The translations under genes were made by a program, and so were the position numbers. 64,000 nucleotides of DNA from Terrabacter tumescens (GTDB taxonomy: Bacteria; Actinomycetota; Actinomycetes; Actinomycetales; Dermatophilaceae), in assembly GCF_014646815.1 (NCBI RefSeq), contig NZ_BMNZ01000003.1, positions 124,001 to 188,000 on the forward strand, in the 5' to 3' direction. How positions within the stretch are numbered: position 1 is the stretch's first letter; each line of letters starts with the position of its first letter. The notes beneath the pieces are model-generated. The model was not told where the DNA came from. It made no database searches and saw only the letters and a list, made by a program, of their open reading frames with translations. Of the stretch, positions 1,867 through 55,704 are shown one piece after another.

Positions 1867-2739
1867 TCAGCGCGAGCGGCGCGCAGCCGTCACGCGGGGA
1901 CGACCGGAGAGGTCACGGTGGTCCGCCACCTCGAGCCACTCCCCCGTGGCCGCGAGCCGGCGCGGCAGGCTCGCGCCCTGCGAGTCCGCGTGCTCGATGA
2001 GCACGAGGCCTCCGGGACGGAGCAGGCCGGCCGCCACCCGGGCCACCGCGAGCGGGATCGCCAGCCCGTCCTCGCTGCCGCCGTAGAGCGCGATGTCGGG
2101 GTCGTGGTCGCGTACCTCGGGGTCGACGGGCACGGCGCCGACGGGGATGTAGGGCGGGTTGATGGTCACGAGGTCGACGCCGCTGGCCCAGTCCTCGAAG
2201 CACGCCGCGGTCGCGTCGCCCTGCACGAGGTCCACCTCGAGACCCAGCCGGTCCCGGTTGGCGACGGCCCAGGCGTACGCGTCGGGTGACAGCTCGAGCG
2301 CCCGCACCTCGGCCTCGGGCCGCTCGTCCTTGACCGACAGCGCGATCGCGCCGGACCCGGAGCACAGGTCGACGACGCGCACCGGCTCGGGCCGGCCGAG
2401 CGAGTGCACCCGGTCGACCTCGGCGAGGGCCAGGTCGACGAGCACCTCGGTCTCGGGTCGGGGCACGAAGACCCCGGGCCCGACCGCGACGGTCAACCGT
2501 CGGAAGTGGGCTCGTCCGGTCAGGTGCTGGAGCGGGACCCGCGCGGCGCGCTCGTCGACGAGGACGGCATACGTGCTCGGGAGCGTGCGCCCACCGAGCA
2601 CCATGAGGCGACGCACCTCGGAGGAGTCCACGCCGAGGACGTGGGCCGCGAGCTCGATGGCGTCGACGTCGGCCGAGACCACGCCGGCCTCACGCAGGCG
2701 CGCGGTCGCGGCTCGGACGCCGTCGCGCAGGTCCGTCAC
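1867..2739 (-). CDS. prmC: Peptide chain release factor N5-glutamine methyltransferase
   Basis: Methylates the Gln of the GGQ motif in class I release factors, using SAM, which raises termination efficiency. The 290-residue protein has an N-terminal helical domain, the substrate-contact region with [13 protein letters not shown] around 91-102, the SAM loop [11 protein letters not shown] around 124-134, and the catalytic NPPY at 194-197. The GTG start overlaps the TGA of prfA by four bases (GTGA), so the enzyme is translationally coupled to its substrate. Length and motifs are normal for the family. The 160 bp between its stop and the next gene hold no obvious terminator, so sua5 may be partly cotranscribed besides having its own promoter. 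Confidence 0.96.
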
Positions 2740-3833
2740 GCGTCGGACCCGTCAGCCCCAGCGGCGGCGAGGGCCGCGAGCTTGGCCGCCTCGTCGGCGT
2801 CGAGGGCCGACTGGACGACCGGGTCGAGGTCGCCGTCGAGGACCGCGTCGAGGTTGTAGGACTTGTAGCCCGTGCGGTGGTCGGAGATGCGGTTCTCCGG
2901 GAAGTTGTAGGTGCGGATGCGCTCGGAGCGGTCGACGGTGCGCACCTGCGACCGGCGGGCGGCGCTCGCCTCGGCGTCGGCCTCGTCCTTTGCCTGCTGG
3001 TGCAACCGGGCCCGGAGGACGCGCATCGCGGCCTCCTTGTTCTGCAGCTGCGACTTCTCGTTCTGGCACGAGACGACGAGACCGGTCGGCAGGTGCGTGA
3101 TGCGCACGGCGGAGTCGGTCGTGTTGACGCTCTGTCCGCCGGGGCCGCTGCTGCGGTAGACGTCGATGCGCAGGTCGTTGGGGTCGATCGTCACCTCGAC
3201 CTCCTCGGCCTCGGGCATGACGAGGACGCCGGCGGCCGAGGTGTGGATGCGACCCTGGCTCTCGGTGACGGGCACGCGCTGCACGCGGTGCACGCCGCCC
3301 TCGTACTTCAGGCGCGCCCACGGCCCCTCGCCGAGACCGGGAGTCCCCTTGGCGCGCACCGAGACCCGCACGTCCTTGTAGCCGCCGAGGTCGCTCTCGG
3401 TGGCGTCCTCGATGGCGGTGCGCCAGCCGCGCTGCTCGGCGTAGCGGAGGTACATCCGCAGCAGGTCGCCGGCGAAGAGCGCCGACTCGTCGCCGCCCTC
3501 GCCCGCCTTGACCTCGAGGATGACGTCGCGGTCGTCGTCGGGGTCGCGCGGCACGAGCATCCGGCGCAAATGCTCCTCGGCCTCGGCGAGGCGAGCCTCG
3601 AGCGAGGGCACCTCGGCGGCGAAGGACTCGTCGTCGGCCGCGAGCTCGCGGGCGGTGGTGAGGTCGTCACCGGCCGCCGTCCACTCCCGCGCGGCGGCGA
3701 CGGTCGGGGCCAGGGCGGCATACCGCTTGTTCAGCGTGCGCACGAGGTCCTGGTCGCCGTGGACGGCCGGGTCGGCGAGCTGCTGCTCGAGCTCGGCGTA
3801 CTCGTCGAGGATCGACTGGACGGATTCGAGCAC
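2736..3833 (-). CDS. prfA: Peptide chain release factor 1
   Basis: Class I release factor that recognises UAA and UAG and triggers peptidyl-tRNA hydrolysis in the ribosome. The 365-residue protein carries the PVT anticodon-like tripeptide at about 188-190, which marks RF1 rather than RF2. It also has the catalytic GGQ at 232-234 in the usual GGQSVNTT context. It starts at GTG, with AAGGG about nine bases upstream as SD. It ends in a four-base overlap with prmC. The gene follows rpmE on the same strand, but a strong UUCG-loop hairpin lies between the two, so prfA-prmC probably has its own start within the rpmE 3' region or relies on read-through. Confidence 0.97.
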
Positions 3834-3908
3834 GGTAGGCCCTTCGGCTCAGGAACTTGCAGGGACACGTACGTGGAGACGTCCGTGGGGACGGGCGGAT
3901 ACGACGAA

Positions 3909-3945
3909 CGCCGGCCCCCGACGACCGAAGTCGTGGGAGCCGGCG
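3909..3945 (-). terminator. Intrinsic-type terminator after rpmE
   Basis: On the minus-strand RNA this folds into a GC-rich stem of about 15 pairs, with one bulge and one mismatch, closed by a C(UUCG)G tetraloop. It lies 11 bases past the rpmE stop. No U-tract follows, as is common in high-GC actinobacteria. Confidence 0.75.
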
Positions 3946-3955
3946 TGCGGGAGAC

Positions 3956-4171
3956 CTACTTGGCGGCCTTCTTGCCGTAACGGGCCTCGAACCGGGCCAC
4001 GCGGCCACCGGTGTCGAGGATCTTCTGCTTGCCCGTGTAGAACGGGTGGCACTGCGAGCACACGTCGGCAGCGATCTTGCCGGAGGTCTCGGTGCTGCGG
4101 GTGGTGAACGTGTTGCCACAGGTGCAGGTGACCGTGGTCTCCACGTAGTCGGGGTGAAGGTCCTTCTTCAA
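3956..4171 (-). CDS. rpmE: 50S ribosomal protein L31, zinc-binding form
   Basis: Component of the large subunit at the central protuberance bridge. The 71-residue protein begins KKDLHPDY after the initiator. It carries the zinc ligand pattern Cys16-x-Cys18 and Cys38-x2-Cys41-His42, so it is the C+ form, used when zinc is plentiful. I place the start at a TTG because GAGGAG lies seven bases upstream and the product then has the normal L31 length. An open frame continuing upstream would add 39 residues with no family similarity. It stands alone, with a strong hairpin immediately downstream. Confidence 0.96.
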
Positions 4172-4318
4172 GATTGTCTCCTCGAGGTAGTCGGCCGGGT
4201 CGGTGTCGTCGCTCGCCACCGTGGTGGGTCGCTCGGCCGTGAACCGGTCCAAAGGAAGAGTGTGCCAGAAAGGCGCACCTCCTCCCAAACGCGCGACGGC
4301 CCCGGCGCATTCCCCGCG

Positions 4319-6400
4319 TCAGGCGGGCACGACGGCGGGCTGGGCGACCGGCAGCACGACCTGCATCGTCGTCCCCTCCCCCTCGACCGAGGCGATGACG
4401 AGCTCCCCGCCGTGGCCCTCGACGATGGCGCGCACGATGGCGAGACCCAGCCCCGTGCCCGGGATCGCCGCGGCCGTCGCGTTGCCGGCCCGGAAGAAGC
4501 GTTCGGACAGGCGTGCCAGGTCGGCGGCCGGGATGCCGATGCCGGTGTCGTGCACCGAGATGATCGTCGAGTCACCCGACCGCTCCGCCGACAGCAGCAC
4601 CTGCCCGCCCTTCCGGGTGAACTTCACGGCGTTGGACCCGAGGTTGATCAGGGCCCGCTCCACCTGGCCGCGGTCGACCCGGACGACGAGGTCGTCGGGC
4701 ACGTCGGTGCAGACGAGCTCGACCCCGCCGTTGGCGGCGACGGGCTCCATCGTCTCGGTGACGGTGCGCAGCAGGTCGCGGACGGCGACCTCCTCGGAGA
4801 CCGCCTGCAGGCCGCTGATCTCGATCTTGTTGAGGACGAGGAGGTCCTCGATGAGCCCGCGCAGCCGGGTCGCGTTGCGACCGATGATGTCGAGGGCGAC
4901 GTGCTGGCCGTCGGACACCTCCCCGAAGTCGCCGTCGACGAGCAGCTCGAGGTAGCCGCTGATCGACGTCAGCGGCGTGCGCAGCTCGTGGCTGACCGTC
5001 GCCATGAAGTCGGTCTTCTGCCGGTCGAGCTCGGTGAGCCGTCGCACCTGCTCGTCCTGCATCTGCGAGAGCCGGAGGGCCACGATCGACTGGGCCGCGA
5101 TGGCCGCGCACTGCTGCGCCGCCTGGATCTCGTGGCGGTGCCAGCGCCGCGGCGCGCCGACCATCATCACCGACAGGATGCCGAGGCCGCGCCCACCCGT
5201 GCCGACCGGGAGCATGAGCAGCGAGCGCGCGCCCGTGGCCCGGTGGAAGGCACGCGCCCGCTCGTCGTCGTAGGCCTGGTGGGCGAGCAGGTCGCCGAGG
5301 TCGAAGAAGCCGACGTCGCGGCGCAGCTCGTCGTTGACGGCGCCGACCTGCTGGGCGAGCGAGCGCGGCAGCGGCGGCAGGTCCGGCAGGTCGTCGGTGT
5401 GCCACTGGAGCCGGTCCTCGATGGTCTGCCCGTCGTCGCCCAGGGTGTAGAGCAGCAGCCGGTCGGCGCCGAGACCGGCACCGAGCTTGGTCGTGACGCG
5501 TTGGAGGGCCTCGTGCACGTCGACGGCGGAACGGACCGTGCGGCCCACGTCGAGGACGAGCTCCTGCATCTCGAGCACGGCGGCCTGCTGGTCGACGAGG
5601 CGGGCGTTGGCCCGGGTGAGGTCGTTGAAGTCGCGGGCGAGCATGCGCACCTCGAGAGCGCCCTCCTCCTGGTTCGCCATGGCGATGACGTCCTCCTCGG
5701 CCTGCCGGCGCACCACCTCGCGCAGCCGGGCGAGGGGGCGACCGACGGCACGGTGCATGCCGAAGCCCGCCGCGACGAGGACGAGCACCACGGCCGCGGC
5801 CACGGCGATGATGACGGCGGACGTGATGGCGGTGGCCTCGCGCGAGTCGATGCGCGCTGCGTCGCGCCGCGCCTGGATGCTCGCGCCGAGCGTCTCGTTG
5901 GCCGAACGGAAGCGGGCGTATGCCGTCTCTGCCGTGGCGCGGTCGGCCGGGGTCGCGCTGCGGCCGGGTGCCAGCCCCTGCAGCGAGGTGCCAGCCGCGG
6001 TGAACCAGGCCTCGACGGCCTCGCGCTCCTGACGCACCTGCCCGGCGAAACGCGCCCGGTCAGTCTGCGTCAGCTCGTCGCTCGCCGTCGCCGTCGCGAC
6101 CCGGGCGAGCTCGGCCGCGACGGCCGGGCGCAGGCTCAGCGGGTCGACCGGCGTCGCGAGGCCACCGGCCTGCTGGCGCCAGGCCGCCTCGGCCCGGGTC
6201 ATGTCGAGCAGCACCGCGCTGTTGGCCTCGCGGGCCGGCCCCAGGGCCAGGGTGAGGGCCCGGACCGCCGCGCCCTGGGAGTGGATCGTGGCGACCGAGA
6301 TGATCGCGCCGAGGGGCACGAGGACGACAAGGATGGTGATGAGGACGCGGATCTGGCTGCCGACCGGACGCCGGGACACCACGGGGAGACCACTCGTCAC
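4319..6400 (-). CDS. Membrane histidine kinase with HAMP and GAF domains
   Basis: Sensor kinase of 693 residues. A first membrane helix lies at about 15-38 and an extracytoplasmic helical sensor region follows. A second membrane helix lies near 190-215, then a HAMP linker and a GAF domain (about 285-430). After these come the HisKA motif FMATVSHELRTPLT with the phospho-accepting His and an HATPase domain with N (NLGSNAVKF), G1 (DTGIGIP) and G2 (GTGLGLAI) boxes. Its GTG start overlaps the glycosyltransferase stop by four bases (GTGA). It is the last gene of a four-gene unit that begins with a lone receiver, its probable phosphorylation partner. The GAF ligand is unknown. The role in controlling the polysaccharide synthase is inferred from coupling only. 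Confidence 0.9.
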   Translation of the reverse strand: MTSGLPVVSRRPVGSQIRVLITILVVLVPLGAIISVATIHSQGAAVRALTLALGPAREANSAVLLDMTRAEAAWRQQAGGLATPVDPLSLRPAVAAELARVATATASDELTQTDRARFAGQVRQEREAVEAWFTAAGTSLQGLAPGRSATPADRATAETAYARFRSANETLGASIQARRDAARIDSREATAITSAVIIAVAAAVVLVLVAAGFGMHRAVGRPLARLREVVRRQAEEDVIAMANQEEGALEVRMLARDFNDLTRANARLVDQQAAVLEMQELVLDVGRTVRSAVDVHEALQRVTTKLGAGLGADRLLLYTLGDDGQTIEDRLQWHTDDLPDLPPLPRSLAQQVGAVNDELRRDVGFFDLGDLLAHQAYDDERARAFHRATGARSLLMLPVGTGGRGLGILSVMMVGAPRRWHRHEIQAAQQCAAIAAQSIVALRLSQMQDEQVRRLTELDRQKTDFMATVSHELRTPLTSISGYLELLVDGDFGEVSDGQHVALDIIGRNATRLRGLIEDLLVLNKIEISGLQAVSEEVAVRDLLRTVTETMEPVAANGGVELVCTDVPDDLVVRVDRGQVERALINLGSNAVKFTRKGGQVLLSAERSGDSTIISVHDTGIGIPAADLARLSERFFRAGNATAAAIPGTGLGLAIVRAIVEGHGGELVIASVEGEGTTMQVVLPVAQPAVVPA

Positions 6401-7845
6401 GCGGGGTCCTCGTCGAAGCCGGTGCGGGTCATGACTCCCCAGACGTGCTTCTTCCCGCGCAGGCTCGACCACCACCCCTCGAGGCGCCACCACACGGTGG
6501 CCTGGCGGTAGCCGATGTTCTCGAGGACCGAGGCGGCGATGGTCTGCCAGATGGCGCGCCACCGGTCGTGCTTGTGGAAGGCCCACTCGTCGACGACCAT
6601 CGCCGAGAGGGTCACGAGCACGGCATACCCGTAGGCGAGCACGAGGAAGAGGATCGCGAAGGGCACGTTGACGACGCCGAGGAGCAGGGCGAGCGGCACG
6701 ATGAGGATGCCGAAGAACTCGAGGAGCGGCGCGATGAGCTCGAAGAGCCAGTAGTACGGCAGCGCCAGGAAGCCGATGCGGCCGTACTTCGGCCGGAAGA
6801 GCATGCTGCGGTAGGCCCACAACGTCTCCCACAGGCCGCGGTGCCAGCGCCGGCGCTGGTTGCGCAGGACCGTGGCGGTCACGGGGACCTCGGTCCAGGA
6901 CACCGGCTCGGGCACGAACTCGACCTTGTAGTCGCGCCCCTCGTCGCGCATGCGCTTGTGGATGCGCATGACGAGCTCGAAGTCCTCGCCGATGCTGTCG
7001 GGGTCGAGACCGCCGACCTCGACCACGACGTCACGCCGGAAGAGCCCGAACGCGCCGCTGATGAGGATGAGCCCACCGACGCGCGACCAGCCGGTGCGGC
7101 CGAGCAGGAAGGCGCGGAGGTACTCGACGAGCTGGATCCGCGGGATCCACGTCTGGGGCATCTCGACGCGCACGATGCGGCCCGAGACGACGCGGCTGCC
7201 GTTGACGGGACGGATGGCGCCACCGGTCGCGACCATGCGGGTCGGGTCGTCGGCGAAGGGCCGCGTCACGTGGAGCAGTCCGTCGGGCTCGAGGATGGAG
7301 TCGCCGTCGATCATCGCGACGAGCGGCTCGCTGGCGGCGTTGATGGCGACGTTGATCGCCTCGGAGCGACCGGAGTTCTCCTTGCGCACCACGACGAGGC
7401 GGGTGCGCCCGTCGCGAGGCACCCAGATCCCGAGGACCCGGGCCCGGACGGGCACCTCGTGCGGGAGCTCGCGCGGCACCTGAACGAGGTCGAAGGCCTC
7501 CTCGAGGCGGGCGAAGGTCTGGTCGCTGCTGCCGTCGTCGACGACGACGACCTCGTGCCGGGGGTAGCGCAGGGTGAGGAAGGACTTGACGGCGGTGACG
7601 ATGCCGGCCTCCTCGTTGTAGGCCGGCACGAGCAGCGACACGCCGGGCGCGAGGCCGGCGCCCTGCCACGTCAGGGCCGTGGCGCGACGTCGCTGCTGGG
7701 CCCGGAACTCCAGGTAGGCCAGACCGATGAGCACGAGCAGTGAGGTGTTGATGAGCAGGAAGTAGATGATGATCGGCACGCTCGAGACGTCCATGACCCA
7801 CACGACGAAGGAGCGCAGCCCCTCGATCAGGCCGTCCCAGCTCAT
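6397..7845 (-). CDS. Processive family-2 glycosyltransferase, membrane-bound
   Basis: Polysaccharide synthase-like enzyme of 482 residues resembling PgaC/IcaA, hyaluronan and cellulose synthases. Membrane helices lie at about 20-46. The catalytic domain has VVDDGSSD (Asp103/104), the metal-binding MIDGD (178-182), GED (286-288) with the likely catalytic base, and QRRRW (330-334), the acceptor-channel motif of processive enzymes. Three or so further membrane helices lie at about 358-422. Substrate cannot be read from sequence; beta-linked exopolysaccharide is an inference from the family. The ATG start overlaps the HEAT gene stop (ATGA) and its stop overlaps the kinase start, so expression is stoichiometrically linked to both neighbours. 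No PilZ domain is present in this protein. Confidence 0.88.
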   Translation of the reverse strand: MSWDGLIEGLRSFVVWVMDVSSVPIIIYFLLINTSLLVLIGLAYLEFRAQQRRRATALTWQGAGLAPGVSLLVPAYNEEAGIVTAVKSFLTLRYPRHEVVVVDDGSSDQTFARLEEAFDLVQVPRELPHEVPVRARVLGIWVPRDGRTRLVVVRKENSGRSEAINVAINAASEPLVAMIDGDSILEPDGLLHVTRPFADDPTRMVATGGAIRPVNGSRVVSGRIVRVEMPQTWIPRIQLVEYLRAFLLGRTGWSRVGGLILISGAFGLFRRDVVVEVGGLDPDSIGEDFELVMRIHKRMRDEGRDYKVEFVPEPVSWTEVPVTATVLRNQRRRWHRGLWETLWAYRSMLFRPKYGRIGFLALPYYWLFELIAPLLEFFGILIVPLALLLGVVNVPFAILFLVLAYGYAVLVTLSAMVVDEWAFHKHDRWRAIWQTIAASVLENIGYRQATVWWRLEGWWSSLRGKKHVWGVMTRTGFDEDPA

Positions 7846-8913: not shown

Positions 8914-9315
8914 TCATCGCGCCCTGGCGAGCATGCCGTTGACGCGGTGCAGCAGCTCCCGCGGGCTGAACGGCTTGATGACGTAGTCGTCGGCGCCGAC
9001 GGCGAAGCCGGTGTCGACGTCGGAGTCGCGCGACTTGGCACTGAGCAGGAGCACCGGGACCGAGGGGTGCCCGCTCTCGCGGATCTTGCGCAGCACGTCG
9101 ATGCCGGAGAGCCCCGGCATCATGACGTCGAGCACCGCGAGCTGGGGCGGGTTGGCCTCGAAGGCCTCCCAGGCACTGACGCCGTCGGGAACGGCCTCGA
9201 CGGCATATCCGGCCTGGGTCAGCTTGAACTCGACGAGGTCTCGGATGTCTGCGTCGTCGTCGGCCACGAGGACTCGGACGGGGCTGGCATCGGGGTCGCC
9301 GGCAGGCGCAGACAT
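8914..9315 (-). CDS. Single-domain response regulator (receiver only)
   Basis: CheY-like receiver of 133 residues without an output domain. It has the acidic pair in VADDDADIRD, phospho-acceptor Asp63 in VLDVMMPG, the conserved Ser/Thr position in LLLSAKS, and the switch Lys in VIKPF. Start is ATG with GGAG four bases upstream. It is the first gene of the unit receiver, HEAT, glycosyltransferase, kinase. With no DNA-binding domain it should act by protein contact, most simply on the HEAT scaffold or the synthase. Phosphate would come from the kinase at the other end of the operon. That circuit is inferred from gene order, not shown by sequence. Confidence 0.92.
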   Translation of the reverse strand: MSAPAGDPDASPVRVLVADDDADIRDLVEFKLTQAGYAVEAVPDGVSAWEAFEANPPQLAVLDVMMPGLSGIDVLRKIRESGHPSVPVLLLSAKSRDSDVDTGFAVGADDYVIKPFSPRELLHRVNGMLARAR

Positions 9316-11860: not shown

Positions 11861-12838
11861 TCAGCGGGCGTGCACGGTCGCGCCGTGCAGCGGGACCGAC
11901 GGGCTGAGCCGCTCCCAGTGCGATGCGAGGTGGCCGGCCTGCACCGCGGCCGCCGCCTCGCGGGTCGTGAGCACGAGCACGCTCGGTCCCGCCCCCGAGA
12001 CGACCGCCGCTCGCCCCTGCGAGCGGAGCAGGTCCACGAGCTCCATCGTGGCGGGGTAGGACGGTCGGCGGGCCTCCTGGTGGAGCCAGTCGCGGGTGGC
12101 CGCGTGCAGGTGCGAGGGGTCCGCGGTCAGGGCGTGGACGAGGAGCGCCGCACGTCCGGCGCCGGCCGCGGCCGCCGCGAGCGGCACCGTCTCGGGCAGC
12201 ACGGCGCGGGCCGTCCGGGTCGCGAGCTGCGTCTCTGGGACGAAGACGACGACGTCGACGTCCGGGTGCAGGTCGATGTGTGCCGTGACCGTGCGGTCAC
12301 CGCGGTCGAGACCCGAGCCGTCGGGCATCCAGCTGACGGTGAGGCCCCCCAGCACGCTGGCGGAGGCGTTGTCGGGATGACCCTCGAGCCGGCTCGACAC
12401 ATCGGTCGCCAGCCCCAGGTCGACGGGCACGGCCTCCCCGGCGGCCGGCCAGACGGCATACGACCCCTCGGCCACACCCAGCGAAAGGGCTTGTGCGGCA
12501 ACGACACCCGCGACGATGGCGGTCGCCGAGGACCCGAGACCACGGCCGTGCGGGACGCCGTTGGCAGCCACGAGGCGCAGGCCCGGCGGCGGCTCGACAC
12601 CCAGGATCCGCCACGTGTGCTGCATCGTCGCGTGCACGAGGTGCCGCTCGTCGGTGGGCACGTCGACGGCGCCCTCTCCGGTGACCTCGATGAGCAGCCC
12701 GGGAGTGTCCGACGTCGTCACGACGTAGTGGTCCCAGAGGCCCAGGGCCAGGCCGATCGAGTCGAAACCGGGGCCGAGGTTGGCGCTGCTCGCGGGCACC
12801 CGCACCTCGACGGAGCGGCCCGCAGGCACCCGGCTCAC
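11861..12838 (-). CDS. thrB: Homoserine kinase
   Basis: GHMP-family kinase that phosphorylates homoserine for threonine synthesis. The 325-residue protein has the N-terminal VRVPASSANLGPGFDSIG motif and the ATP loop PHGRGLGSSATA at about 95-106. The C-terminal GHMP motif is in AVVSGAGPSVLVL. The GTG start lies four bases after the thrC stop with GAGGG inside the end of thrC as SD, so it is the distal gene of hom-thrC-thrB. A longer frame reaching back into thrC is unlikely. No strong terminator follows; the 230 bp to the left form the leader of rho. Confidence 0.95.
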   Translation of the reverse strand: MSRVPAGRSVEVRVPASSANLGPGFDSIGLALGLWDHYVVTTSDTPGLLIEVTGEGAVDVPTDERHLVHATMQHTWRILGVEPPPGLRLVAANGVPHGRGLGSSATAIVAGVVAAQALSLGVAEGSYAVWPAAGEAVPVDLGLATDVSSRLEGHPDNASASVLGGLTVSWMPDGSGLDRGDRTVTAHIDLHPDVDVVVFVPETQLATRTARAVLPETVPLAAAAAGAGRAALLVHALTADPSHLHAATRDWLHQEARRPSYPATMELVDLLRSQGRAAVVSGAGPSVLVLTTREAAAAVQAGHLASHWERLSPSVPLHGATVHAR

Positions 12839-15347: not shown

Positions 15348-16766
15348 TCAGACGTCGAGGGCGAGCAGGTCGTCGATGGTCTCGCGCCGCACGATGACGC
15401 GGGCGACCCCGTCGCGCACCGCGACGACCGGCGGCCGTGGCGTGTGGTTGTACTGGCTCGACAGCGACCGGCAGTAGGCGCCCGTGCCGGGGACGGCGAG
15501 GAGGTCTCCGGCACCGATGTCGCCGGGGAGGAACTCGTCCTTGACGACGATGTCGCCGCTCTCGCAGTGCCGCCCCACGACGCGCCCGAGGACCGGCGGG
15601 GCGTCGGAGGCACGGCTCGCCAGCGTGCACGAGTAGTTCGCGTCGTAGAGGGCGGTGCGCACGTTGTCGCTCATGCCGCCGTCGACCGAGACGTAGACGC
15701 GCTGGGCGCCGCCGTCGAGGTCGACGGGCTTGACGGTGCCGACCTCGTAGAGGGTGAAGGTCGAGGGCCCGGCGATGGCGCGGCCCGGCTCGATGGAGAT
15801 GCGGGGCACGGCGATCCCGTCGGCGCCGCACTCGCGCTCGATGATCTCGGCCATGCCGGACGCGAGACTCTTCGGCGGCAGCGGGTCGTGCTCGGTCGTG
15901 TAGGCGATGCCGAACCCGCCGCCGAGGTCGAGCTCGGGCAGCTCGGCGCCGAGCTCGCGCGCGATCTGCGTGTGCAGGCCGACGATGCGCCGGGCCGACA
16001 CCTCGAAGCCTGCCGTGTCGAAGATCTGCGAGCCGATGTGGCTGTGCAGGCCGAGCAGGCGCAGCGACTCGGGCTTGCCGAGGATCCGCCGCGCTGCTTC
16101 GAAGGCATGCCCACCAGCCAGGGAGAGGCCGAACTTCTGGTCCTCGTGGGCCGTGGCGATGAACTCGTGGGTGTGGGCCTCGACGCCGACGGTGACGCGG
16201 ACGAGGACCGGTGCGACGACGCCGAGCTCGGTCGCCACCGCGGCGACGCGCTCGATCTCGTCGAAGGAGTCGATGACGATCCGGCTCACGCCGTAGTCGA
16301 GCGCGTCACGGATCTCGGCGACGCTCTTGTTGTTGCCGTGCAGACCGATGCGCTCGCCGGGCACGCCGGCCCGCTTCGCCACCGCGAGCTCACCGCCGGT
16401 GCACACGTCGAGGTGCAGTCCCTCGTCGTGCACCCACCGGGCCACTTCGGTGCAGAGGAAGGCCTTGCCGGCGTAGAAGACGTCCGCGCCGCCCGACACG
16501 CTGTCGAACACCTCGGCGTACGTCTGCTTGAAATCCCTTGCGCGCGAACGGAAGTCGTCCTCGTCGATGATGTATGCCGGTGTGCCGAACTCGCGCGCCA
16601 GCTCGGTCACGCTCACCCCACCGACCGTGAGGACGCCGTCGCTCCCCCGGCCCACGGACGTCGCCCAGAGGGACGGGACGAGGGCGTTGACGTCGGCCGG
16701 GGTCTGGAGCCACGCGGGGCCGCGATAGCCCTCCGCGTGCAGCGCTCCAGCTTCGTGTGCGCGCAT
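15348..16766 (-). CDS. lysA: Diaminopimelate decarboxylase
   Basis: PLP enzyme of alanine-racemase fold that decarboxylates meso-diaminopimelate to lysine, the last step of lysine synthesis. The 472-residue protein has the PLP lysine in DVFYAGKAF (Lys101), the LGLHSHIGSQI motif, the glycine loop DLGGGFGIAY, EPGRAI, and the C-terminal SVDGGMSDN and ESGDIVVKDE segments. The ATG lies two bases after the stop of the ArgS-like gene, with GAGAGG eight bases upstream overlapping that gene's end, so the pair is an operon. Length and motifs are complete. No lysine riboswitch is visible in front. Confidence 0.96.
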   Translation of the reverse strand: MRAHEAGALHAEGYRGPAWLQTPADVNALVPSLWATSVGRGSDGVLTVGGVSVTELAREFGTPAYIIDEDDFRSRARDFKQTYAEVFDSVSGGADVFYAGKAFLCTEVARWVHDEGLHLDVCTGGELAVAKRAGVPGERIGLHGNNKSVAEIRDALDYGVSRIVIDSFDEIERVAAVATELGVVAPVLVRVTVGVEAHTHEFIATAHEDQKFGLSLAGGHAFEAARRILGKPESLRLLGLHSHIGSQIFDTAGFEVSARRIVGLHTQIARELGAELPELDLGGGFGIAYTTEHDPLPPKSLASGMAEIIERECGADGIAVPRISIEPGRAIAGPSTFTLYEVGTVKPVDLDGGAQRVYVSVDGGMSDNVRTALYDANYSCTLASRASDAPPVLGRVVGRHCESGDIVVKDEFLPGDIGAGDLLAVPGTGAYCRSLSSQYNHTPRPPVVAVRDGVARVIVRRETIDDLLALDV

Positions 16767-18621: not shown

Positions 18622-18629
18622 ACGGCATA
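18622..18629. repeat. Copy of the recurrent octamer ACGGCATA/TATGCCGT between convergent genes
   Basis: This copy lies 11 bases after a stop codon. The same octamer occurs 17 times in the window on either strand. See the findings for the list and the estimate of expectation. Confidence 0.6.
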
Positions 18630-19780: not shown

Positions 19781-21171
19781 GACGCGTCCCCCGATCGACC
19801 GGCTGACGGCATACGTCCGTCGTGCCCGTCGCCTGCCGGCTCGTCCGCTGCGTGGTCCGCGTCCTGCGGGAGCGACTCCGGGTCGGGCACGAAGCGCAGC
19901 CGGTCGACCCGGCGGCCCTCCATGCCGACGACGTTGATGCGCCAGCCCGGCAGGCGCACGACGTCGCCGACGACCGGCACCCGCCCGAGGCTCGTCATGA
20001 CGAAGCCGCCCATCGTCTCGTAGGTCGAGCCGTCGGGGACGTCGGCGTCGAAGGCGTCGCGCACCTCGTCGGGGCGCCACAGCCCGGGCACCGTCCACGA
20101 GCCGTCGATGAGCTCGCGACCACCCTGGCGGCTGCGGTCGTGCTCGTCGGACACCTCGCCGACGATCTCCTCCACGACGTCCTCGAGCGTGACGATGCCC
20201 GACGTGCCGCCGTACTCGTCGACGACGACGGCCATCTGGAAGCCGCCCTCGCGCAGCTCGCGCAGCAGCGGGTCGAGCCGGATCGTCTCGGGCACGACGA
20301 GGCGGTCGGACATGAGCGCCGAGACCGGCACGTCCTTGCGCCGATCGTGCGGGACCGCCATCGCCTTCTTGACGTGGACGACGCCGTCGATGTCGTCCCA
20401 GTCCTCGCCGAGGACGGGGAAGCGCGAGTGCCCGGTGCGTCGCGACAGGCGCAGCACGTCGTCGGCGGACTCGTCGCGGTGGATGCCGGTGCAGCGCACG
20501 CGCGGGGTCATGACGTCGTCGGCGGTGCGCTCGCCGAAGCCGAGCGAGCGGGTCAGCATGCGCGCCGTCGTCACGTCGAGCGTGCCGGCCTCGGCCGAGC
20601 GCTGGACGAGGCTCGCGAGCTCCTGGGGCGTGCGCGCGCCCGACAGCTCCTCCTGCGGCTCGATGCCGAGCGCCCGCAGGAAGGCGTTGGCCGAGCCGTT
20701 GAGCACGACGATGAGCGGCTTGGCGACCACGGCGAAGACGCGGACCGGGAGCGCCACGACCTTGGCCGTCGCGAGCGGTGCAGAGATGCCGAGGAACTGC
20801 GGGAGCAGCTCGCCGAAGACCATCGAGAAGACCGTCGCGATCAGCAGGGCGAGCGCGCTCGAGACTGCCTCGACGGCGCCGGCCCCCAGCCCGAGGGAGG
20901 TGAGCGGCCCCGCCACGAGGACACCGATGGACGGTTGGGCGAGGTAGCCGACGACGAGGGTCGTGATCGTGATCCCGACCTGGGCCGCGGACAGCTGCGT
21001 CGAGAGCTGCTTGAGCGACTGCAGCACGACGCGCGCCCGCGAGTCCCCCTCGTCGATGGCGCGCTGGACCGTCGGCCGGTCGATGGCCACGAGGGAGAAC
21101 TCGGCGGCGACGAAGAGCGCGGTGCCCGCGGTGAGCAGGACGGCGCCGAGGACGAGGAGCCACTCGGTCAC
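19777..21171 (-). CDS. CNNM/CBS-domain membrane protein with CorC-HlyC domain
   Basis: A 464-residue protein. The CNNM membrane domain spans about residues 1-190 (helices around LLVLGAVLLTAGTALFVAAE, AAQVGITITTLVVGYL, ATVFSMVFGELLPQFLG). Paired CBS domains follow at about 210-335, with VVVDEYGGTSGIVTLEDV, then the CorC-HlyC domain (DGSWTVPG, YETMGGFV, VVRLPGWRINV). Likely a divalent-cation efflux factor. The GTG start overlaps the TGA of a 16-codon upstream ORF in GTGA fashion, so its translation probably depends on reading that ORF. A longer TTG-initiated reading is possible but lacks an SD. Its stop in turn overlaps the next paralogue. Confidence 0.9.
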   Translation of the reverse strand: MTEWLLVLGAVLLTAGTALFVAAEFSLVAIDRPTVQRAIDEGDSRARVVLQSLKQLSTQLSAAQVGITITTLVVGYLAQPSIGVLVAGPLTSLGLGAGAVEAVSSALALLIATVFSMVFGELLPQFLGISAPLATAKVVALPVRVFAVVAKPLIVVLNGSANAFLRALGIEPQEELSGARTPQELASLVQRSAEAGTLDVTTARMLTRSLGFGERTADDVMTPRVRCTGIHRDESADDVLRLSRRTGHSRFPVLGEDWDDIDGVVHVKKAMAVPHDRRKDVPVSALMSDRLVVPETIRLDPLLRELREGGFQMAVVVDEYGGTSGIVTLEDVVEEIVGEVSDEHDRSRQGGRELIDGSWTVPGLWRPDEVRDAFDADVPDGSTYETMGGFVMTSLGRVPVVGDVVRLPGWRINVVGMEGRRVDRLRFVPDPESLPQDADHAADEPAGDGHDGRMPSAGRSGDAS

Positions 21172-21233: not shown

Positions 21234-21365
21234 TGGAGGAGAGGGTGCGCAGGGACGCGCGGACCGCTCGGCCCACCTCCGCGTGGAGGGCGTATGCCGT
21301 GTGGTTGAGTTGGGCGCATCACGGCGGGCCCGCGACTCGCGCGCAGGGCGACGGAGGGAGCACGG

Positions 21366-22439
21366 GTGGTGCACGGACGACCGGAGTTCACCGGGCACAT
21401 CGAGGTGCGGGGGCTGACGAAGCGCTTCGGCTCGTTCACGGCCGTCGACCACCTCGACTTCGACGTCGAACCGGGCCGGGTCACCGGCTTCCTCGGGCCC
21501 AACGGCAGCGGCAAGACGACGACCCTGCGCATGCTCCTCGGCCTCGTTCGCGCCACCGACGGCACCGCGACGATCGACGGCCACCGCTACGCCGACATCG
21601 GCAACCCGCTCACCGTCGTCGGGTCAGCGCTCGAGGCGACGAACTTCCACCCCGGTCGCACCGGTCGCAACCACCTCCGGGTGCAGGCCGCCGTGGCCGG
21701 CGTGCCGGACACGCGCGTCGACGAGCTGCTCGAGCTCGTCGGCATCCCCGCCGCCGCCCGCAAGCGCGCCGGTGGCTACTCGATGGGCATGCGCCAGCGG
21801 CTCGGCCTCGCCGCCGCCCTGCTCGGCGACCCCCGCGTCATCATCCTCGACGAGCCCGCCAACGGCCTCGACCCCGAGGGCATCCGCTGGCTGCGCGGCT
21901 TCCTGCGCCAGCTCGCCGACGAGGGCCGCACGCTCCTCATCTCCAGCCACATGCTCTCCGAGGTCGAGCAGACCGTCGACGACGTCGTCATCATCGCCAA
22001 CGGCCAACGGGTCGCCCAGGGCACCGTCGCCGAGCTGCGCGGCGAGCCCACGGCATACGTCCGCACGTCCGACCCCGACCGCCTCAGCCAGGCGCTGCGC
22101 GACCGTGGTCTCGCCGTCGCCCCGAGCGGGCGGGGGCTGCGGGTCACGACCGAGGACCTCGCGGTCGTCGGCGACGTGGCCCACGCCAGCGACGTCGCGA
22201 TCCACGAGCTGCGCAGCGAGCAGACCCACCTCGAGGAGCTGTTCTTCAACCTCACCGAGAGCGAGGAGCACCGCAACCGCAACCTCGCCCGGCCGCCGGG
22301 CGGTGCCCCCGTCGACCTCCCACCGCCGAGCGGGCCACCCATCGACCCCGCCCTGCTCGCCGAGCCCGCGCAGGCCGCCCAGCGCGCCCAGTCCGCCCAG
22401 CCCTCGGGCGCACCCGACCACGACGGAGACCTCCGATGA
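21366..22439 (+). CDS. ABC transporter ATP-binding protein
   Basis: A 357-residue ATPase of the DrrA/CcmA exporter type. It has Walker A GPNGSGKTTT near residues 45-54, the signature YSMGMRQRLGLA, Walker B RVIILDEPANGLDPEG and the H-loop SSHMLSEVE. The last ~65 residues are a Pro/Ala/Gln-rich tail unlike typical family members. GTG start with GGAGGG seven bases upstream; a second GTG follows immediately. Its TGA overlaps the ATG of the permease (ATGA), so the two form a bicistronic exporter. The substrate is unknown. It is transcribed divergently from the CNNM operon. Confidence 0.93.
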   Translation: MVHGRPEFTGHIEVRGLTKRFGSFTAVDHLDFDVEPGRVTGFLGPNGSGKTTTLRMLLGLVRATDGTATIDGHRYADIGNPLTVVGSALEATNFHPGRTGRNHLRVQAAVAGVPDTRVDELLELVGIPAAARKRAGGYSMGMRQRLGLAAALLGDPRVIILDEPANGLDPEGIRWLRGFLRQLADEGRTLLISSHMLSEVEQTVDDVVIIANGQRVAQGTVAELRGEPTAYVRTSDPDRLSQALRDRGLAVAPSGRGLRVTTEDLAVVGDVAHASDVAIHELRSEQTHLEELFFNLTESEEHRNRNLARPPGGAPVDLPPPSGPPIDPALLAEPAQAAQRAQSAQPSGAPDHDGDLR

Positions 22440-27362: not shown

Positions 27363-27482
27363 GCATCTCCGGGCGACACGGCATACGCCATCGGGCCCTT
27401 TGCCGGGCTACGGAGAGGCCCGGAGACCGAGATCGGGCCGCCCTCCTCGGCCCGCCTCCGCAAGGCCCACCCCGGCACGCGA

Positions 27483-27675: not shown

Positions 27676-28518
27676 GTGAGCGACCGCAGCGACCGAGCCG
27701 AGCACCACGACGCCCCGAGGGAGCCCTACGGCGTGGGCCCGGCCTACCCCTCGTCCCACACCCGCTTCACCACCGACGCCCCGAGCCGGTATGCCGCTGC
27801 GTCCGCTCCCGAGGCCGCCGCCACCGACGGTGCCGCCCCCGCTGCCTCACCGGCCCCGCCGGCCGCGACGGCCCCGTCGGAGGACCCGTACTACGCGCCC
27901 AGCGCCGAGTTCACCGTCGCCGAGGGCCTGCGGGACGTCGGCATGGTCTTCGTCGGCGCCTCCATGACGGCCGGCTACGGCGACCCGAAGGGCCTGGGCT
28001 GGGTGGGCCGCGTGGTCGCACGCACGCAGCACCCCGACCTCGACCTCACGGCCTACAACCTCGGCGTGCGCGGCAACACCTCCGCCGACGTCGTGGCCCG
28101 CTGGGGCGCCGAGTGCCACCCGCGCTGGAAGGGCCGCTCGGAGCGGCGCCTCGTGCTGTCGGTAGGCACCGGAGACGTCCTGTCCGGCATGACGATGGCC
28201 CGCTCGCGGCTCAACCTCGCCAACATCCTCGACGAGGCGACCAACGCCGGCATCGGGGTCTTCGTCGTGGGCCTGGCCCCCACTCTCGACGACGAGATGA
28301 ACCGCAAGATCGAGGCCCTCGCCGAGGCGCAGGCCGACGTCTGCTCGCGGCGCGGCATCACCTACGTCGACTGCTTCCGGCCGCTCGCCACCCACGACCA
28401 GTGGATGGCCGACCTCGCCGCGAGCCCCGACCGGGCGCACCCGGGTCAGGCGGGCTACGGCCTCATCGCGTGGCTCGTGCTGCACAACGGCTGGAACGAC
28501 TGGCTCTCGCTCAGCTGA
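27676..28518 (+). CDS. SGNH/GDSL-type hydrolase with disordered N-terminus
   Basis: A 280-residue protein. The first ~75 residues are Ala/Pro/Ser/Asp-rich and probably disordered. The SGNH core has block I VGASMTAGYGD with the nucleophile Ser, block II GVRGNTS, and block V DRAHPGQAGY with the Asp and His. Block III, normally GxND, reads VGTGDV, so the oxyanion-hole Asn is not in the usual position. No signal peptide or membrane segment, so likely cytosolic. GTG start four bases after the DUF6104 stop, hence coupled to it. Its 3' end overlaps the convergent membrane-protein gene by eight bases. Esterase or thioesterase activity is inferred from fold only. Confidence 0.82.
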   Translation: MSDRSDRAEHHDAPREPYGVGPAYPSSHTRFTTDAPSRYAAASAPEAAATDGAAPAASPAPPAATAPSEDPYYAPSAEFTVAEGLRDVGMVFVGASMTAGYGDPKGLGWVGRVVARTQHPDLDLTAYNLGVRGNTSADVVARWGAECHPRWKGRSERRLVLSVGTGDVLSGMTMARSRLNLANILDEATNAGIGVFVVGLAPTLDDEMNRKIEALAEAQADVCSRRGITYVDCFRPLATHDQWMADLAASPDRAHPGQAGYGLIAWLVLHNGWNDWLSLS

Positions 28519-29637: not shown

Positions 29638-29652
29638 TATGCCGTATGCCGT
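29638..29652. repeat. Two overlapping copies of the octamer TATGCCGT
   Basis: TATGCCGT occurs twice, sharing one T, between the convergent whiB1 and pdtaS genes. It is the densest site of the recurrent octamer. Confidence 0.7.
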
Positions 29653-37499: not shown

Positions 37500-37610
37500 C
37501 CGTCGGCGACGCGGTGGACGTGGCGGGCCGCGGACGGCACCGGCGACGCGGAGCCGGGCCCACGGCATACGTCCTCGGGGCGCAGGGCGCCGTGCAATAG
37601 CGTGTCGGCC

Positions 37611-38108
37611 ATGAAGATCTCCGAGACGATCACGTATGCCGCGCCGCCCGAGACCGTCTACGCCATGGTCACCGACCCGGCCTTCCAGGAGCGCAAGTGC
37701 GTCGAGGCCCACGCCCAGCGGCACGAGGCCGCGGTGAGCCCGGCCGGGGACGGCGCCCGCGTCGTCACCAAGCGCGACCTGCCGGCCGACGACCTCCCCG
37801 ACTTCGCGAAGTCCATCGTCGGGCCGACCCTGTCGGTGACGGAGACCTACGAGTGGGGCGCCGCAGCGGCCGACGGCTCGCGCTCGGGCACCCTGACCGT
37901 CGAGGTCGCCGGCGCGCCGGTCGCCATGCGCTCGAACGTGCGGCTCGTCCCGTCGGGCGGCGGCACGAAGATCACCATCGAGGGCGACCTCAAGGCCTCG
38001 ATCCCGCTCTTCGGCGGCAAGGTCGAGAAGGCCGCGGCGCCGGCCGTCATCGACGCCATCCACAGCGAGCAGCGGACCGGCACGGCCTGGCTCGCCGAGC
38101 GCGCCTGA
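37611..38108 (+). CDS. DUF2505 family protein (SRPBCC-like fold)
   Basis: A 165-residue protein matching the DUF2505 pattern: MKISETITYAAPPETVYAMV at the start, then TLSVTETYEW, TLTVEVAGAPVAMRSNVRL, and a C-terminal helix FGGKVEKAAAPAVIDAIHSEQ. The family is related to START/polyketide-cyclase cavities that bind hydrophobic ligands. Ligand and role are unknown. ATG chosen because the preceding GTG three codons upstream lacks any better SD and the family begins at this Met. It stands alone and ends at a hairpin shared with the convergent pruA. Confidence 0.88.
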   Translation: MKISETITYAAPPETVYAMVTDPAFQERKCVEAHAQRHEAAVSPAGDGARVVTKRDLPADDLPDFAKSIVGPTLSVTETYEWGAAAADGSRSGTLTVEVAGAPVAMRSNVRLVPSGGGTKITIEGDLKASIPLFGGKVEKAAAPAVIDAIHSEQRTGTAWLAERA

Positions 38109-40508: not shown

Positions 40509-40556
40509 GTCGCCGGGCTGTTGGCCGCTGCGCCTTCGGTCTCGTATGCCGTGTGG

Positions 40557-41330: not shown

Positions 41331-42332
41331 TCAGGCGGCCCCGGCACGACGGTGGCCGACGGCGTTCGCGGCCTCGGTCTCCGCCGCCGGTGTGAGGGGC
41401 TGCGGCCGGTCCTCACCGTGCAGGCTGGCATCGACCGGCAGCCGGTCGACGAACCGCGCCACCGCTCCCCCGACCGCAGCGTCCGCGAGGAGGCGTCGGT
41501 GGCCGAGCCCCGCCGTCGAGAGCAGCTGCCCGTCGGGCCAGGACCGCACGAGACGGGTCGACGGCTCGTGCGGCACCTCTCGGTCGAGCAGGTCGTGGAC
41601 GACGAGCAGCTCGGGTCGCCCGGCCGCCGGGAGGCCGCCGGAGATCGTGACGAGGTCGAGCTCGTCCGGCCCGTAGCCGGTGCGCAGCCGCACGCGGTCG
41701 ACGAGTCTTCGGGTCGTCCGCTCCCCGAGGCCCAGCTCGGCCCGCAGCACGGCGAGCAGGTCGGGTATGCCGCTCGGCGGGGCGAGGAGCACGAGACGCT
41801 CTGCTGCAAGCCAGCCGTCGCGGATGGCGAGGAGCGAGCTGAGCGCTCCCATCGAGTGGGCGACCACGGCGCGGGCCGGACCGAAGCGCGCGGCGACGGC
41901 ATCGAGGGAGCGACCGAGCTCGACGGCGTCGCTCGAGGAGGCGCCGTGGACGCCGGCGTCGGAGCGGCCGTGGCTGAGGCCGTCGAAGGCGACGACCCGC
42001 AGGCCGCGGTCGAGGAGCGGCGCGACGAGCGGCACCAGCTGCTCGAGACTCCCGCCCCAGCCGTGCACGAGGTAGACGACCGGGCCCTTGCCCCAGACCC
42101 ACCCCCGGACCGCCCGACCCCGCAGGCGCACCTCGAAGGGGGCCGCGAGCAGCTCCCGGATCGGCACGCTGGTGCCCGACACCGGGGCCGGCGTGCGTGG
42201 CGCCGGGAGCCGGAACCACACGTCCTCGGCCAGCCGCGCCACGAGACCGGGCCAGGTTGGTTCGAGGACGCGGAAGACGCTTCGCGTAATAGACCGAACG
42301 ATCGTGCTTTTCTGAACCGATGAGAAAGCCAT
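41331..42332 (-). CDS. Alpha/beta hydrolase
   Basis: A 333-residue alpha/beta hydrolase with oxyanion motif HGWGG (90-94), nucleophile elbow AHSMG with Ser160, an acidic residue in VVHDLLDREVP and the catalytic His in AGLGHRRLL. The N-terminal ~55 residues are basic with a short amphipathic helix, perhaps membrane-associating. ATG with AGGAG five bases upstream. It lies 63 bp downstream of a TetR gene on the same strand. Codons 8-13 contain an exact copy, inverted relative to the gene, of the 18-bp sequence that overlaps the TetR promoter. It may act on lipid-like esters, but that is inference. Confidence 0.9.
   Translation of the reverse strand: MAFSSVQKSTIVRSITRSVFRVLEPTWPGLVARLAEDVWFRLPAPRTPAPVSGTSVPIRELLAAPFEVRLRGRAVRGWVWGKGPVVYLVHGWGGSLEQLVPLVAPLLDRGLRVVAFDGLSHGRSDAGVHGASSSDAVELGRSLDAVAARFGPARAVVAHSMGALSSLLAIRDGWLAAERLVLLAPPSGIPDLLAVLRAELGLGERTTRRLVDRVRLRTGYGPDELDLVTISGGLPAAGRPELLVVHDLLDREVPHEPSTRLVRSWPDGQLLSTAGLGHRRLLADAAVGGAVARFVDRLPVDASLHGEDRPQPLTPAAETEAANAVGHRRAGAA
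42294..42311. promoter_or_regulatory. Second copy of the putative TetR operator, inside the hydrolase gene
   Basis: CCGAACGATCGTGCTTTT, identical to the complement of 43008-43025. Its core ACGATCGT is palindromic. It falls 21 bases inside the alpha/beta hydrolase coding sequence, where a bound repressor could block elongation. Confidence 0.5.
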
Positions 42333-43584: not shown

Positions 43585-44028
43585 TCAGCCGGGAAAGAAC
43601 GAGCGCACGTCGTCGAGCTCGGTGACGTCGTACCAGAGCAGCTCGTCGGCCTCCTCGTCGACGCCGACCGTGACCTCGTCGTCGACGTGGAAGGACGCGA
43701 CCCGCGACAGCGGGAGGGGCGCCGTGACCACGACCTTCGACACGGGCGCGCCGTCACGCGGTGACACCCAGGTCGGGTCGGCGTCGGCGGCCGCGACGAC
43801 CCGGCGGTCCGCACGCGAGGACCGCAGCCGGGCGGCGGCCTCGACGGCGTCGCTGAAGGCGGCGTACTCGAGGTCCTCCACGTCGAGACCCGGCGCCGCC
43901 GCCTCGAGACCCGAGGTCACGGCATACGCCGTCCGTGGGGTGCCCGGTCCGGCCGCGAGCGCGCCCGTCGACGCGAGCTCCTCGAGACCCGCGCGACCCA
44001 GCGGCACGTAGATGCGCACGACGGGCAT
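43585..44028 (-). CDS. DUF6912 family protein
   Basis: A 147-residue protein with the family pattern VRIYVPLGRAGLEELASTG, TAYAVTSGLEAA, DVEDLEYAAFSDAVEAAARL, and a C-terminal acidic region with LLWYDVTELDDVRSFF. It is an uncharacterised actinobacterial family with no catalytic motif that I can identify. The ATG shares one base with the WS/DGAT stop (TGATG), so it is translationally coupled to the acyltransferase. A copy of the octamer ACGGCATA sits in its coding region at 43919, encoding Tyr-Ala-Val with the rare TAT codon. Confidence 0.82.
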   Translation of the reverse strand: MPVVRIYVPLGRAGLEELASTGALAAGPGTPRTAYAVTSGLEAAAPGLDVEDLEYAAFSDAVEAAARLRSSRADRRVVAAADADPTWVSPRDGAPVSKVVVTAPLPLSRVASFHVDDEVTVGVDEEADELLWYDVTELDDVRSFFPG

Positions 44029-45489: not shown

Positions 45490-45876
45490 ATGCGAGCGTT
45501 TCGAGCCCTTCCGTATGCCGTGTGCGTCCTCGCCCTCGCCGGCGCAGGCGCCTGCTCCTCCGCCAGCCCCGAGCCCGGGGCCGGCGGGGCCACCGGCGTC
45601 GTGTCGACCGGCAGCGTCAAGCGCCTCGCGGTGACGATCAGCGGCACCACGGTGACGCCGGCGCCGGCGCAGGTCGACCTGCCGATCGGTTCGACCCTCG
45701 AGCTCGTCGTGACGAGCGACCACGACGACGAGCTGCACGCCCACGGCTTCGACGTCGAGGCGCAGCTCAAGGCGGGCGCGCCGACGACGCTGCGGCTCAC
45801 CGCCACCGAGGCCGGCGCCTACGAGGTCGAGACGCACGACCCGGCCCTGACGCTGCTCACCGTCGCCGTCCGCTGA
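45490..45876 (+). CDS. Cupredoxin-like lipoprotein
   Basis: A 128-residue exported protein. The signal peptide has a hydrophobic core and an AGAC lipobox with Cys22, followed by a Ser/Gly-rich spacer. A small beta-sandwich follows: VKRLAVTISGTTVTPAPAQVDLPIGSTLELVVTSDHDDELHAHGFDVEA. The His residues in HDDELHAHGF resemble one side of a cupredoxin copper site, but the C-terminal Cys-His-Met loop of a true blue copper protein is missing. Metal binding is therefore uncertain. It is followed two bases later by a polytopic membrane protein in the same operon. Confidence 0.8.
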   Translation: MRAFRALPYAVCVLALAGAGACSSASPEPGAGGATGVVSTGSVKRLAVTISGTTVTPAPAQVDLPIGSTLELVVTSDHDDELHAHGFDVEAQLKAGAPTTLRLTATEAGAYEVETHDPALTLLTVAVR

Positions 45877-45878
45877 CC

Positions 45879-49767: not shown

Positions 49768-49995
49768 GTGGCCCAGCGGTTCCTGCAGCTCGCCGAGGTG
49801 TCGGAGATCCTCAACATCTCCTCGGCGCAGGCCTACGCCCTCGTGCGGTCGGGCGAGCTGCCCGCCATCAAGATCGGCGGTCGGGGCCAGTGGCGGGTCG
49901 AGGCCACCGAGCTCGAGAGCTACATCCAGCGGATGTATGCCGAGACGAAGTCGTTCGTGCAGGCCCATCCCTTCGGCGCGGCCGGCGACGAGTGA
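49768..49995 (+). CDS. BldC-like small helix-turn-helix regulator
   Basis: A 75-residue MerR-superfamily/excisionase-type DNA-binding protein. AEVSEILNISSAQAYALVRSGELPAIKIGGRGQWRVEATELESYIQRMY spans the winged helix. Members lack an effector domain and bind direct repeats head-to-tail, as BldC does in Streptomyces. I choose the GTG with GAGGAG six bases upstream. A GTG seven codons earlier would add MPEEEFN, but this would place the SD inside the gene. A stable hairpin pair lies in its leader. It is divergent from the SAF/CpaE-like genes. Confidence 0.88.
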   Translation: MAQRFLQLAEVSEILNISSAQAYALVRSGELPAIKIGGRGQWRVEATELESYIQRMYAETKSFVQAHPFGAAGDE

Positions 49996-50652: not shown

Positions 50653-50716
50653 GTGCCCAGCCTTCCTCGGGCGGACGACGACGGCCACCCGGTACCTGTC
50701 TTCACCAAAAGCATAC

Positions 50717-50746: not shown

Positions 50747-50752
50747 AAAGTC

Positions 50753-52500: not shown

Positions 52501-52616
52501 CCCGACCCGGATCACGACCACCTCGCGACCACTGGCGAAACGACGCAGACAGGACGCGGACAGGACGCGCTCGACGTCGGCGGCCACGCGGCATACGACA
52601 TCACGGGGGCACGCGA

Positions 52617-52648
52617 ACGGCCCGGACACCACAGGGTGTCCGGGCCGT
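52617..52648. terminator. Shared terminator of the Rv3235-family gene and secA
   Basis: Fourteen-pair stem around loop ACAG, between convergent stops. Confidence 0.82.
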
Positions 52649-52671
52649 CACGCGTGCTGCGCCGGGGTCGC

Positions 52672-55503
<2,832 letters not shown>

Positions 55504-55560
55504 CTGGTGATCTCACTCCCGACTGAACGTGTGGACGCGCCCGGTGGGCGGGCTCCATCG

Positions 55561-55592
55561 CCCGTGATGGGTCACGGGACCCGCCTAGGCTA
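55561..55592 (-). promoter_or_regulatory. secA promoter -10 and 5' hairpin
   Basis: TAGCCT at 55587-55592 on the minus strand would start transcription near 55580. The first leader bases form CCCGTGA-CCCA-TCACGGG (55561-55578), which could protect the mRNA 5' end. No clear -35. Confidence 0.4.
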
Positions 55593-55704
55593 GCCGCCTT
55601 CCGGACACAACGACCAACGCACCGGCGCGCGGCCCGGTTCCAATCCGGTTGCGGCGCGGGTACCGGCCGGGACCGAGGGCGTATGCCGTGTGCTCGGGCG
55701 GCGC

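Follow-up and report, generated by a model that had tools for sequence, protein, structure and literature searches.

The question raised by this stretch of a Terrabacter genome (4,707,860 bp in 23 contigs) is why one octamer, TATGCCGT, recurs throughout it. The stretch, here called the window, is the 64,000 nucleotides at positions 124001 to 188000 of contig C3. The explanation we favour, with a rough probability of 0.6, is that a slightly shifted core, GTATGCCG, acts together with its flanking bases as a self-DNA uptake signal, for which a Tad-type competence system would be the reader. Whether this would be the first self-DNA uptake signal outside the Neisseriaceae and Pasteurellaceae, and also the first among Gram-positives, family-wide, with genus dialects, a Tad/Flp-pilus receptor and an independent origin, is in our judgement an even call.

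Identity, codon context and conservation of the word

The original prediction had placed 17 copies of TATGCCGT in the window, and all 17 positions were exact. Its premises were also sound. The GC content, put near 72%, was measured as 72.15%, and the expectation of less than one copy on both strands under independent bases was computed as 0.82. Markov models gave 0.28 (order 3), 1.30 (order 4), 3.35 (order 5) and 6.7 (order 6) copies; models of the last two orders absorb the word itself. Among window octamers with at least five copies, TATGCCGT ranked first at orders 3, 4 and 5 and second at order 6.

Counts were extended to a 784-kb sample comprising 16 contig starts, 20 inner 20-kb stretches and the window, with the four smallest contigs (approximately 12 kb) excluded. 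This sample contained 212 copies of TATGCCGT, against 5.3 expected at order 3 and 25.4 at order 4, and the word ranked first among octamers at orders 3 to 5. The whole genome holds 1,263 copies (618 + 645), against 53 (27 + 26) of the reversed word. The refuting condition set with the prediction, a genome-wide count near the Markov expectation, thus failed: the enrichment is genome-wide, and in the window it exceeds the order-4 to order-6 expectation.

Over-representation of the octamer was upheld; its standing as the conserved unit was not. In the 212 copies the base at position −1 is G in 97% and the base after the octamer is C or G in 96%; the consensus is (C/G)GTATGCCG(T>C>G). GTATGCCG occurs 389 times in the 784 kb, against 19 (order 3) or 102 (order 4) expected, and 2,358 times genome-wide (about 500 per Mb; reversed core, 199). 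In the window, 14 of the 17 octamers carry the leading G and seven further copies of GTATGCCG lack the following T, giving 24 sites. The extension to TATGCCGTGTG, ascribed to many copies, was present in six of the 17. The reverse complement, CGGCATAC, differs from the word, which is therefore non-palindromic. One-base variants of the word lie partly over and partly under expectation in the 784 kb, which decides nothing on an origin like that of the cyanobacterial word HIP1 (highly iterated palindrome), discussed below. The octamer is also part of a common sequencing adapter. Adapter contamination was ruled out as its source, because the sequences around the 17 copies are not alike and the word is conserved in independently assembled relatives.

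Gene calls came from a simple model of codon frequencies, which gave 675 genes covering 86.5% of the 784 kb; the labels coding and intergenic are accordingly approximate. By these labels, 133 copies of TATGCCGT were coding, 74 intergenic and 5 on gene edges. Tyr-Ala-Val (TAT GCC GTN), predicted as the usual coding reading, was indeed the commonest, yet it accounts for 65 of the 133; a further 46 read Thr-Ala-Tyr (ACG GCA TAC) on the other strand, and more than a third of all copies are the intergenic ones. Tyrosine is otherwise mostly TAC, as had been stated (TAT in 341 of 4,283 Tyr codons). Within G-TAY-GCC-G, TAT was used in 167 of 205 cases (82%). It fell to 10-18% where GCC followed but the leading or trailing G was absent, and to 2.5-5.6% before any codon other than GCC. 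Read from the opposite strand, Ala codons that follow CG and precede TAC were GCA in 74 of 157 cases (47%); the share was 2% where TAC came next but CG was missing, and 5-6% elsewhere. Codon usage and the codon pair TAT-GCC both fail as explanations because the preference for TAT and GCA depends on the word context. The enrichment likewise survives a codon-pair control, since TAT is strongly preferred solely when both flanking G residues are present. Four genomes from other strongly enriched genera (G129, G068, G060 and G119), all of those tested, used TAT for 94-100% of Tyr in G-TAY-GCC-G versus 7-38% elsewhere; the context preference was weaker in G015 of genus g16 (3 of 10, versus 4.5%).

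Conservation was scored in five Terrabacter relatives, to which 61-63 kb of the window aligned at 85-88% identity, for 21 GTATGCCG sites. Each cell is one site in one relative; seven of 105 cells were unaligned and were excluded, and cells from related genomes are not independent. All eight bases were kept in 49 of 65 coding cells (75%), against 41% for all coding octamers and 52% for permuted-letter octamers. The corresponding figure for noncoding cells was 17 of 33 (52%), against 32-33% for controls. The commonest difference from relatives at these sites was the synonymous TAT/TAC change. Position conservation in relatives, a check suggested beforehand, thus favoured the word over control octamers. 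Together with the codon context and the other genera, it strongly supports the earlier view that the DNA word, not the encoded protein, is kept.

Layout on the chromosome and distribution among genomes

Strand use bears on a Chi-type recombination hotspot, read by a nuclease of the RecBCD, AddAB or AdnAB type. The non-palindromic octamer core would suit such a role, as would the copy number, which is of the same order as that of Chi in E. coli. Chi-like function should leave a polar pattern, and the strands were split 177:191 over 36 stretches of the genome under study (heterogeneity chi-square 22.8), 57:49 in G129, 39:33 in G068, 39:41 in G060 and 24:20 in G119. No stretch-to-stretch heterogeneity in polarity was found in these five genomes (20-kb stretches, not mapped against ori and ter), and the two strands of the whole genome under study carry the octamer almost equally (618:645). 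With the intergenic excess and inverted pairs described below, which Chi would not be expected to show, this makes a hotspot quite unlikely. The same result disfavours the polar role that had been proposed by analogy with Chi or with FtsK orienting polar sequences (KOPS).

A non-polar segregation factor or a nucleoid protein might instead bind the word as an element of chromosome architecture. The genome-wide spread is in keeping with this, and spacing in the genome under study was more even than Poisson (variance/mean 0.61, 78 bins, p = 0.003), the lowest value of 177 words of like count, the word itself included. Spacing was not more even than Poisson in four other genomes, however, and KOPS-like polarity is absent. 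FtsK was also considered as the word reader and rejected: gamma domains occur in 144 of 149 family genomes and score alike (approximately 72-87 bits; scores only were compared) in word-positive and word-negative genomes. The word is nearly missing in some genomes of the carrier genera g26 and g36, which argues against an essential architectural role. We consider an architectural word improbable.

Sites are denser between genes than within them. Of the 389 copies of GTATGCCG in the 784 kb, 282 lie in or overlap genes and 107 are intergenic. Density per kb was 1.24 in co-directional, 1.38 in convergent and 0.83 in divergent spacers of the genome under study, and 0.24-0.54 inside genes (gene sets sorted by GC content at third codon positions). 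An intergenic excess was also seen in G129 (32% of sites, with 16% of the DNA noncoding), G068 (32%, 12%) and G015 (58%, 14%), and was modest in G119 (14%, or 6 of 44 sites; 7%).

About a fifth of the intergenic sites (23 of 107) are matched within 70 bp by an exact inverted partner; the rate is 2.75% for 1,927 octamers drawn at random from intergenic DNA and 2.8% for the other 282 sites. Several hairpin stems reach past the word, for example at L055:7311 (15 bp, −31.9 kcal/mol). The genes on either side of the exact intergenic pairs are convergent or co-directional; one mismatched pair sits between divergent genes. Hairpins behind genes, in spacers of this kind, are what would be expected if the word were a transcription terminator or RNA-processing element and nothing more. 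That reading is very improbable, as it would leave aside the copies in or overlapping genes and the 84 intergenic copies that have no exact partner.

The family was sampled with 149 genomes from 53 genera of Dermatophilaceae, drawn from a larger group. Strong enrichment was defined, by our own choice, as a count of 150 or more that is also at least four times that of the reversed word. By this cut 85 of the 149 genomes are enriched. At least one enriched genome was found in 32 of the 53 genera, 27 of which have enriched genomes only; a laxer cut still finds none in 20 genera, and g16 is intermediate. In 273 genomes from 19 other families of the order, GTATGCCGT (the core with a following T) did not exceed 44 copies each (read by eye). 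Among 392 genomes from elsewhere in the phylum, GTATGCCG passed the cut in only one, G690 (161 versus 30; read by eye). The word is nearly restricted to the family and is at background almost everywhere else sampled. Named carriers of an extended form, among the matches listed, included Terrabacter, Knoellia, Terracoccus, Humibacillus, Janibacter and Tetrasphaera; single matches also appeared in many unrelated genomes.

Word presence was mapped onto a tree built from ComEC in 42 genomes. By a looser cut (ratio of at least 2.4 and 200 copies) 26 of them are positive and 16 negative, and 17 of 39 inner branches are well supported. At least nine changes are required. In g26 and g36 word-negative genomes have positive neighbours; those of g29 and g2 lie close to genera that carry the word. 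This patchy spread suggests repeated loss, if losses are taken as the likelier direction of change. Zero core copies were found in 80 kb each of G083, G126 and G069. In the word-negative G126 (g39; L223-L226) another octamer, GAAGGGGG, was enriched (32 versus 4.9 at order 3). In G040 (g41; L215-L218) GTACGCCG was mildly enriched (65 versus 16.7 at order 3), possibly reflecting codon usage or an altered dialect.

Across six genera, the core GTATGCC is common and the flanks are genus-specific. Terrabacter has C or G before the core and GT or GC after it, and g18 has G(T/C/G). In g23 and g12, GTATGCCG is followed mostly by CG or TG, and g48 has G before and a weaker preference after. The g16 form is CCGTATGCCGCTG plus a further fixed downstream stretch, partly as hairpins. 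In G015 (g16; L211-L214) this dialect extends to a longer conserved CCGTATGCCGCTGRGCTCGCTCCC-like stretch that is mostly intergenic (15 of 26) and nearer to a short interspersed repeat.

Distribution of this kind recalls HIP1 (GCGATCGC) of cyanobacteria, which PMC4390886 describes as a massively over-represented, lineage-typical octamer, nearly absent or replaced in some members and tied to methyltransferases. As has been proposed for HIP1, an orphan DNA methyltransferase or word-directed repair would create and keep the Terrabacter word. HIP1 is a palindrome, unlike the word here, and the excess density between genes, the terminator-like hairpins and the genus-variable flanks also count against a HIP1-like origin. 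We regard it as rather unlikely. A methylation target or a global regulator site, both proposed in the original prediction, would explain less than an uptake word, the role from the same proposal that fits best.

Proposed uptake role and candidate readers

Published uptake sequences supply the closest likeness. PMC12616744 reports them for Neisseriaceae (DNA uptake sequence, DUS) and Pasteurellaceae (uptake signal sequence, USS) only, with dialects, inverted repeats as terminators and 31-913 copies per Mb. PMC1939737 places 65% of such sequences in H. influenzae and 35% in N. gonorrhoeae within open reading frames (ORFs), with more in noncoding DNA than expected, approximately 10% in inverted repeats and no orientation bias; it doubts the terminator role. 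The Dermatophilaceae word shares the features of this class: copy number, no strand bias, ORF copies yet higher intergenic density, inverted hairpin pairs and dialects. Like the DUS (GCCGTCTGAA), it occurs as hundreds to thousands of words on both strands, with core dialects and inverted pairs that may act as terminators. It differs in phylum and in the word itself; the DUS receptor is ComP, a type IVa minor pilin, of a class nearly absent here. The letters ATGCCGT are common to the 12-base AT-DUS, which looks like coincidence. It resembles the USS (Hin and Apl types) in its 9-mer core, in having extended flanks and many copies in ORFs, and in the number of copies per Mb. The USS is a different word, with a predicted receptor (PpdA/ComN) and a Gram-negative type IV pilus machinery.

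A candidate machine is provided by Micrococcus luteus, a member of the same order as the Dermatophilaceae. Its transformation requires Tad genes according to PMC4322843, of which the main text contains neither the phrase uptake sequence nor uptake signal. Like that species, the Dermatophilaceae carry ComEC and Tad genes (ComEC in 145 and TadE in 144 of the 149 genomes); they differ in the word, for which the 273 genomes of the order's other families show no enrichment. An uptake signal with a Tad pilus or ComEA as reader is favoured because the published features of uptake sequences match, ComEC and Tad are near-universal, Tad is needed in M. luteus and type IVa pilins are scarce. Every rival either fails on one of the tested features or explains less.

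If so, a non-palindromic word of 9-11 bp, spread over the chromosome, would mark family DNA for preferential capture in natural transformation. A surface receptor, most plausibly a Tad/Flp minor pilin or tip protein, or ComEA, would bind double-stranded DNA bearing the word. Pilus retraction would follow, one strand would be imported by ComEC, and recombination would install it. Fragments with the word would be captured more often, and copies would thus spread, in either orientation, where the protein tolerates them. Spread would be easiest between genes, where inverted pairs may double as terminator hairpins. Flanks would drift with the receptor into genus dialects, and words would decay once the system was lost.

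Several results weigh against this explanation. ComEC and Tad genes occur in word-negative genomes as well, so they cannot account for presence or absence of the word. No gene favouring positives was found in a 20-kb stretch around comEC in eight word-positive versus six word-negative genomes; a few genes there favoured word-negatives, without sign of relevance. Type IVa pilins, the class of the known DUS receptor, are nearly absent (PF07963 in 4 and PF05157 in 6 of 149 genomes), and neither domain was found in the genome under study. In this strain an insert appears to divide one of the tad clusters. The excess between genes does not hold in G060, since 15% of its sites are intergenic and 18% of its DNA is noncoding. 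The contrast for inverted pairs becomes weak once the partner may carry one mismatch: 24 of 107 sites (22%) then have one, versus 15% of random intergenic octamers. The even spacing was absent in the four other genomes (variance/mean 0.96, 1.37, 2.14 and 2.03). The literature matches listed contain no report of competence in Dermatophilaceae and no uptake word in Actinobacteria, in a search that left subscription papers and preprints outside; a search on the word itself returned matches only on yeast word abundances and Ralstonia repeat typing. Competence genes often outlive competence, and the lack of a word-tracking gene, the weak point of this explanation, is for this reason a gap rather than a refutation.

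Tad loci were compared by eye in five genomes. In the genome under study (G000), the apparently split tadA/cpaF-like gene lies at approximately 341.6-348.3 kb of contig C6 (L296:11597-18301), with an insert of about 5.4 kb between its two parts. The insert contains one copy of the word and a frame that resembles a large serine recombinase, named from sequence.

If the word is an uptake signal, a high-GC Gram-positive family would join the two known ones as an independent third instance, which would show that self-marking of DNA evolves repeatedly. The whole family would then likely be transformable, and a new kind of receptor would have to be sought, on another type of pilus. Relatives with and without the word offer a direct way to test what causes such words and to look for the receptor. 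Should uptake prove wrong, some 2,400 copies of a word that persists against codon bias would still call for an explanation.

Sites in the window

Sites are given below with strand and the number of the five Terrabacter relatives that keep them, or of those scored; gene labels are from the simple gene caller. GTATGCCGT lies in genes on the minus strand at 2564..2572 (3/5), 6620..6628 (5/5), 12453..12461 (4/5), 19806..19814 (2/5) and 43919..43927 (5/5). It is antisense within genes at 5918..5926 (+, 4/5) and 22050..22058 (−, 2/5).

The core GTATGCCG without the following T lies in genes at 3716..3723 (−, 4/5), 27789..27796 (+, 5/5) and 49935..49942 (+, 0/5). At the last of these the relatives have GTACGCCG (four) or GTACGCGG (one). 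It is antisense within genes at 16572..16579 (+, 5/5) and 41765..41772 (+, 5/5), and intergenic at 52589..52596 (−, 0/4). One further core in a gene, at 37634..37641 (+, 5/5), has an intergenic GTATGCCGT at 37562..37570 (−, 2/4) as its inverted partner.

Octamers with A before TATGCCGT, off consensus, were found at 9200..9207 (−), 18622..18629 (−) and 29638..29645 (+). The last is the first member of an overlapping pair whose second is the intergenic GTATGCCGT at 29644..29652 (+, kept in 0/2 scored relatives). The two octamer copies have one base in common and form a 7-bp tandem (29638-29652), which neither of the two relatives with an alignment here keeps whole; the remaining three do not align at this point.

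The remaining copies of GTATGCCGT are intergenic. They lie at 21292..21300 (+, 1/5), 27378..27386 (−, 4/5), 40544..40552 (+, 0/3) and 45513..45521 (+, 5/5), which abuts a called gene start, and at 55681..55689 (+), which is kept in 5/5 despite flanks that are only 67% identical.
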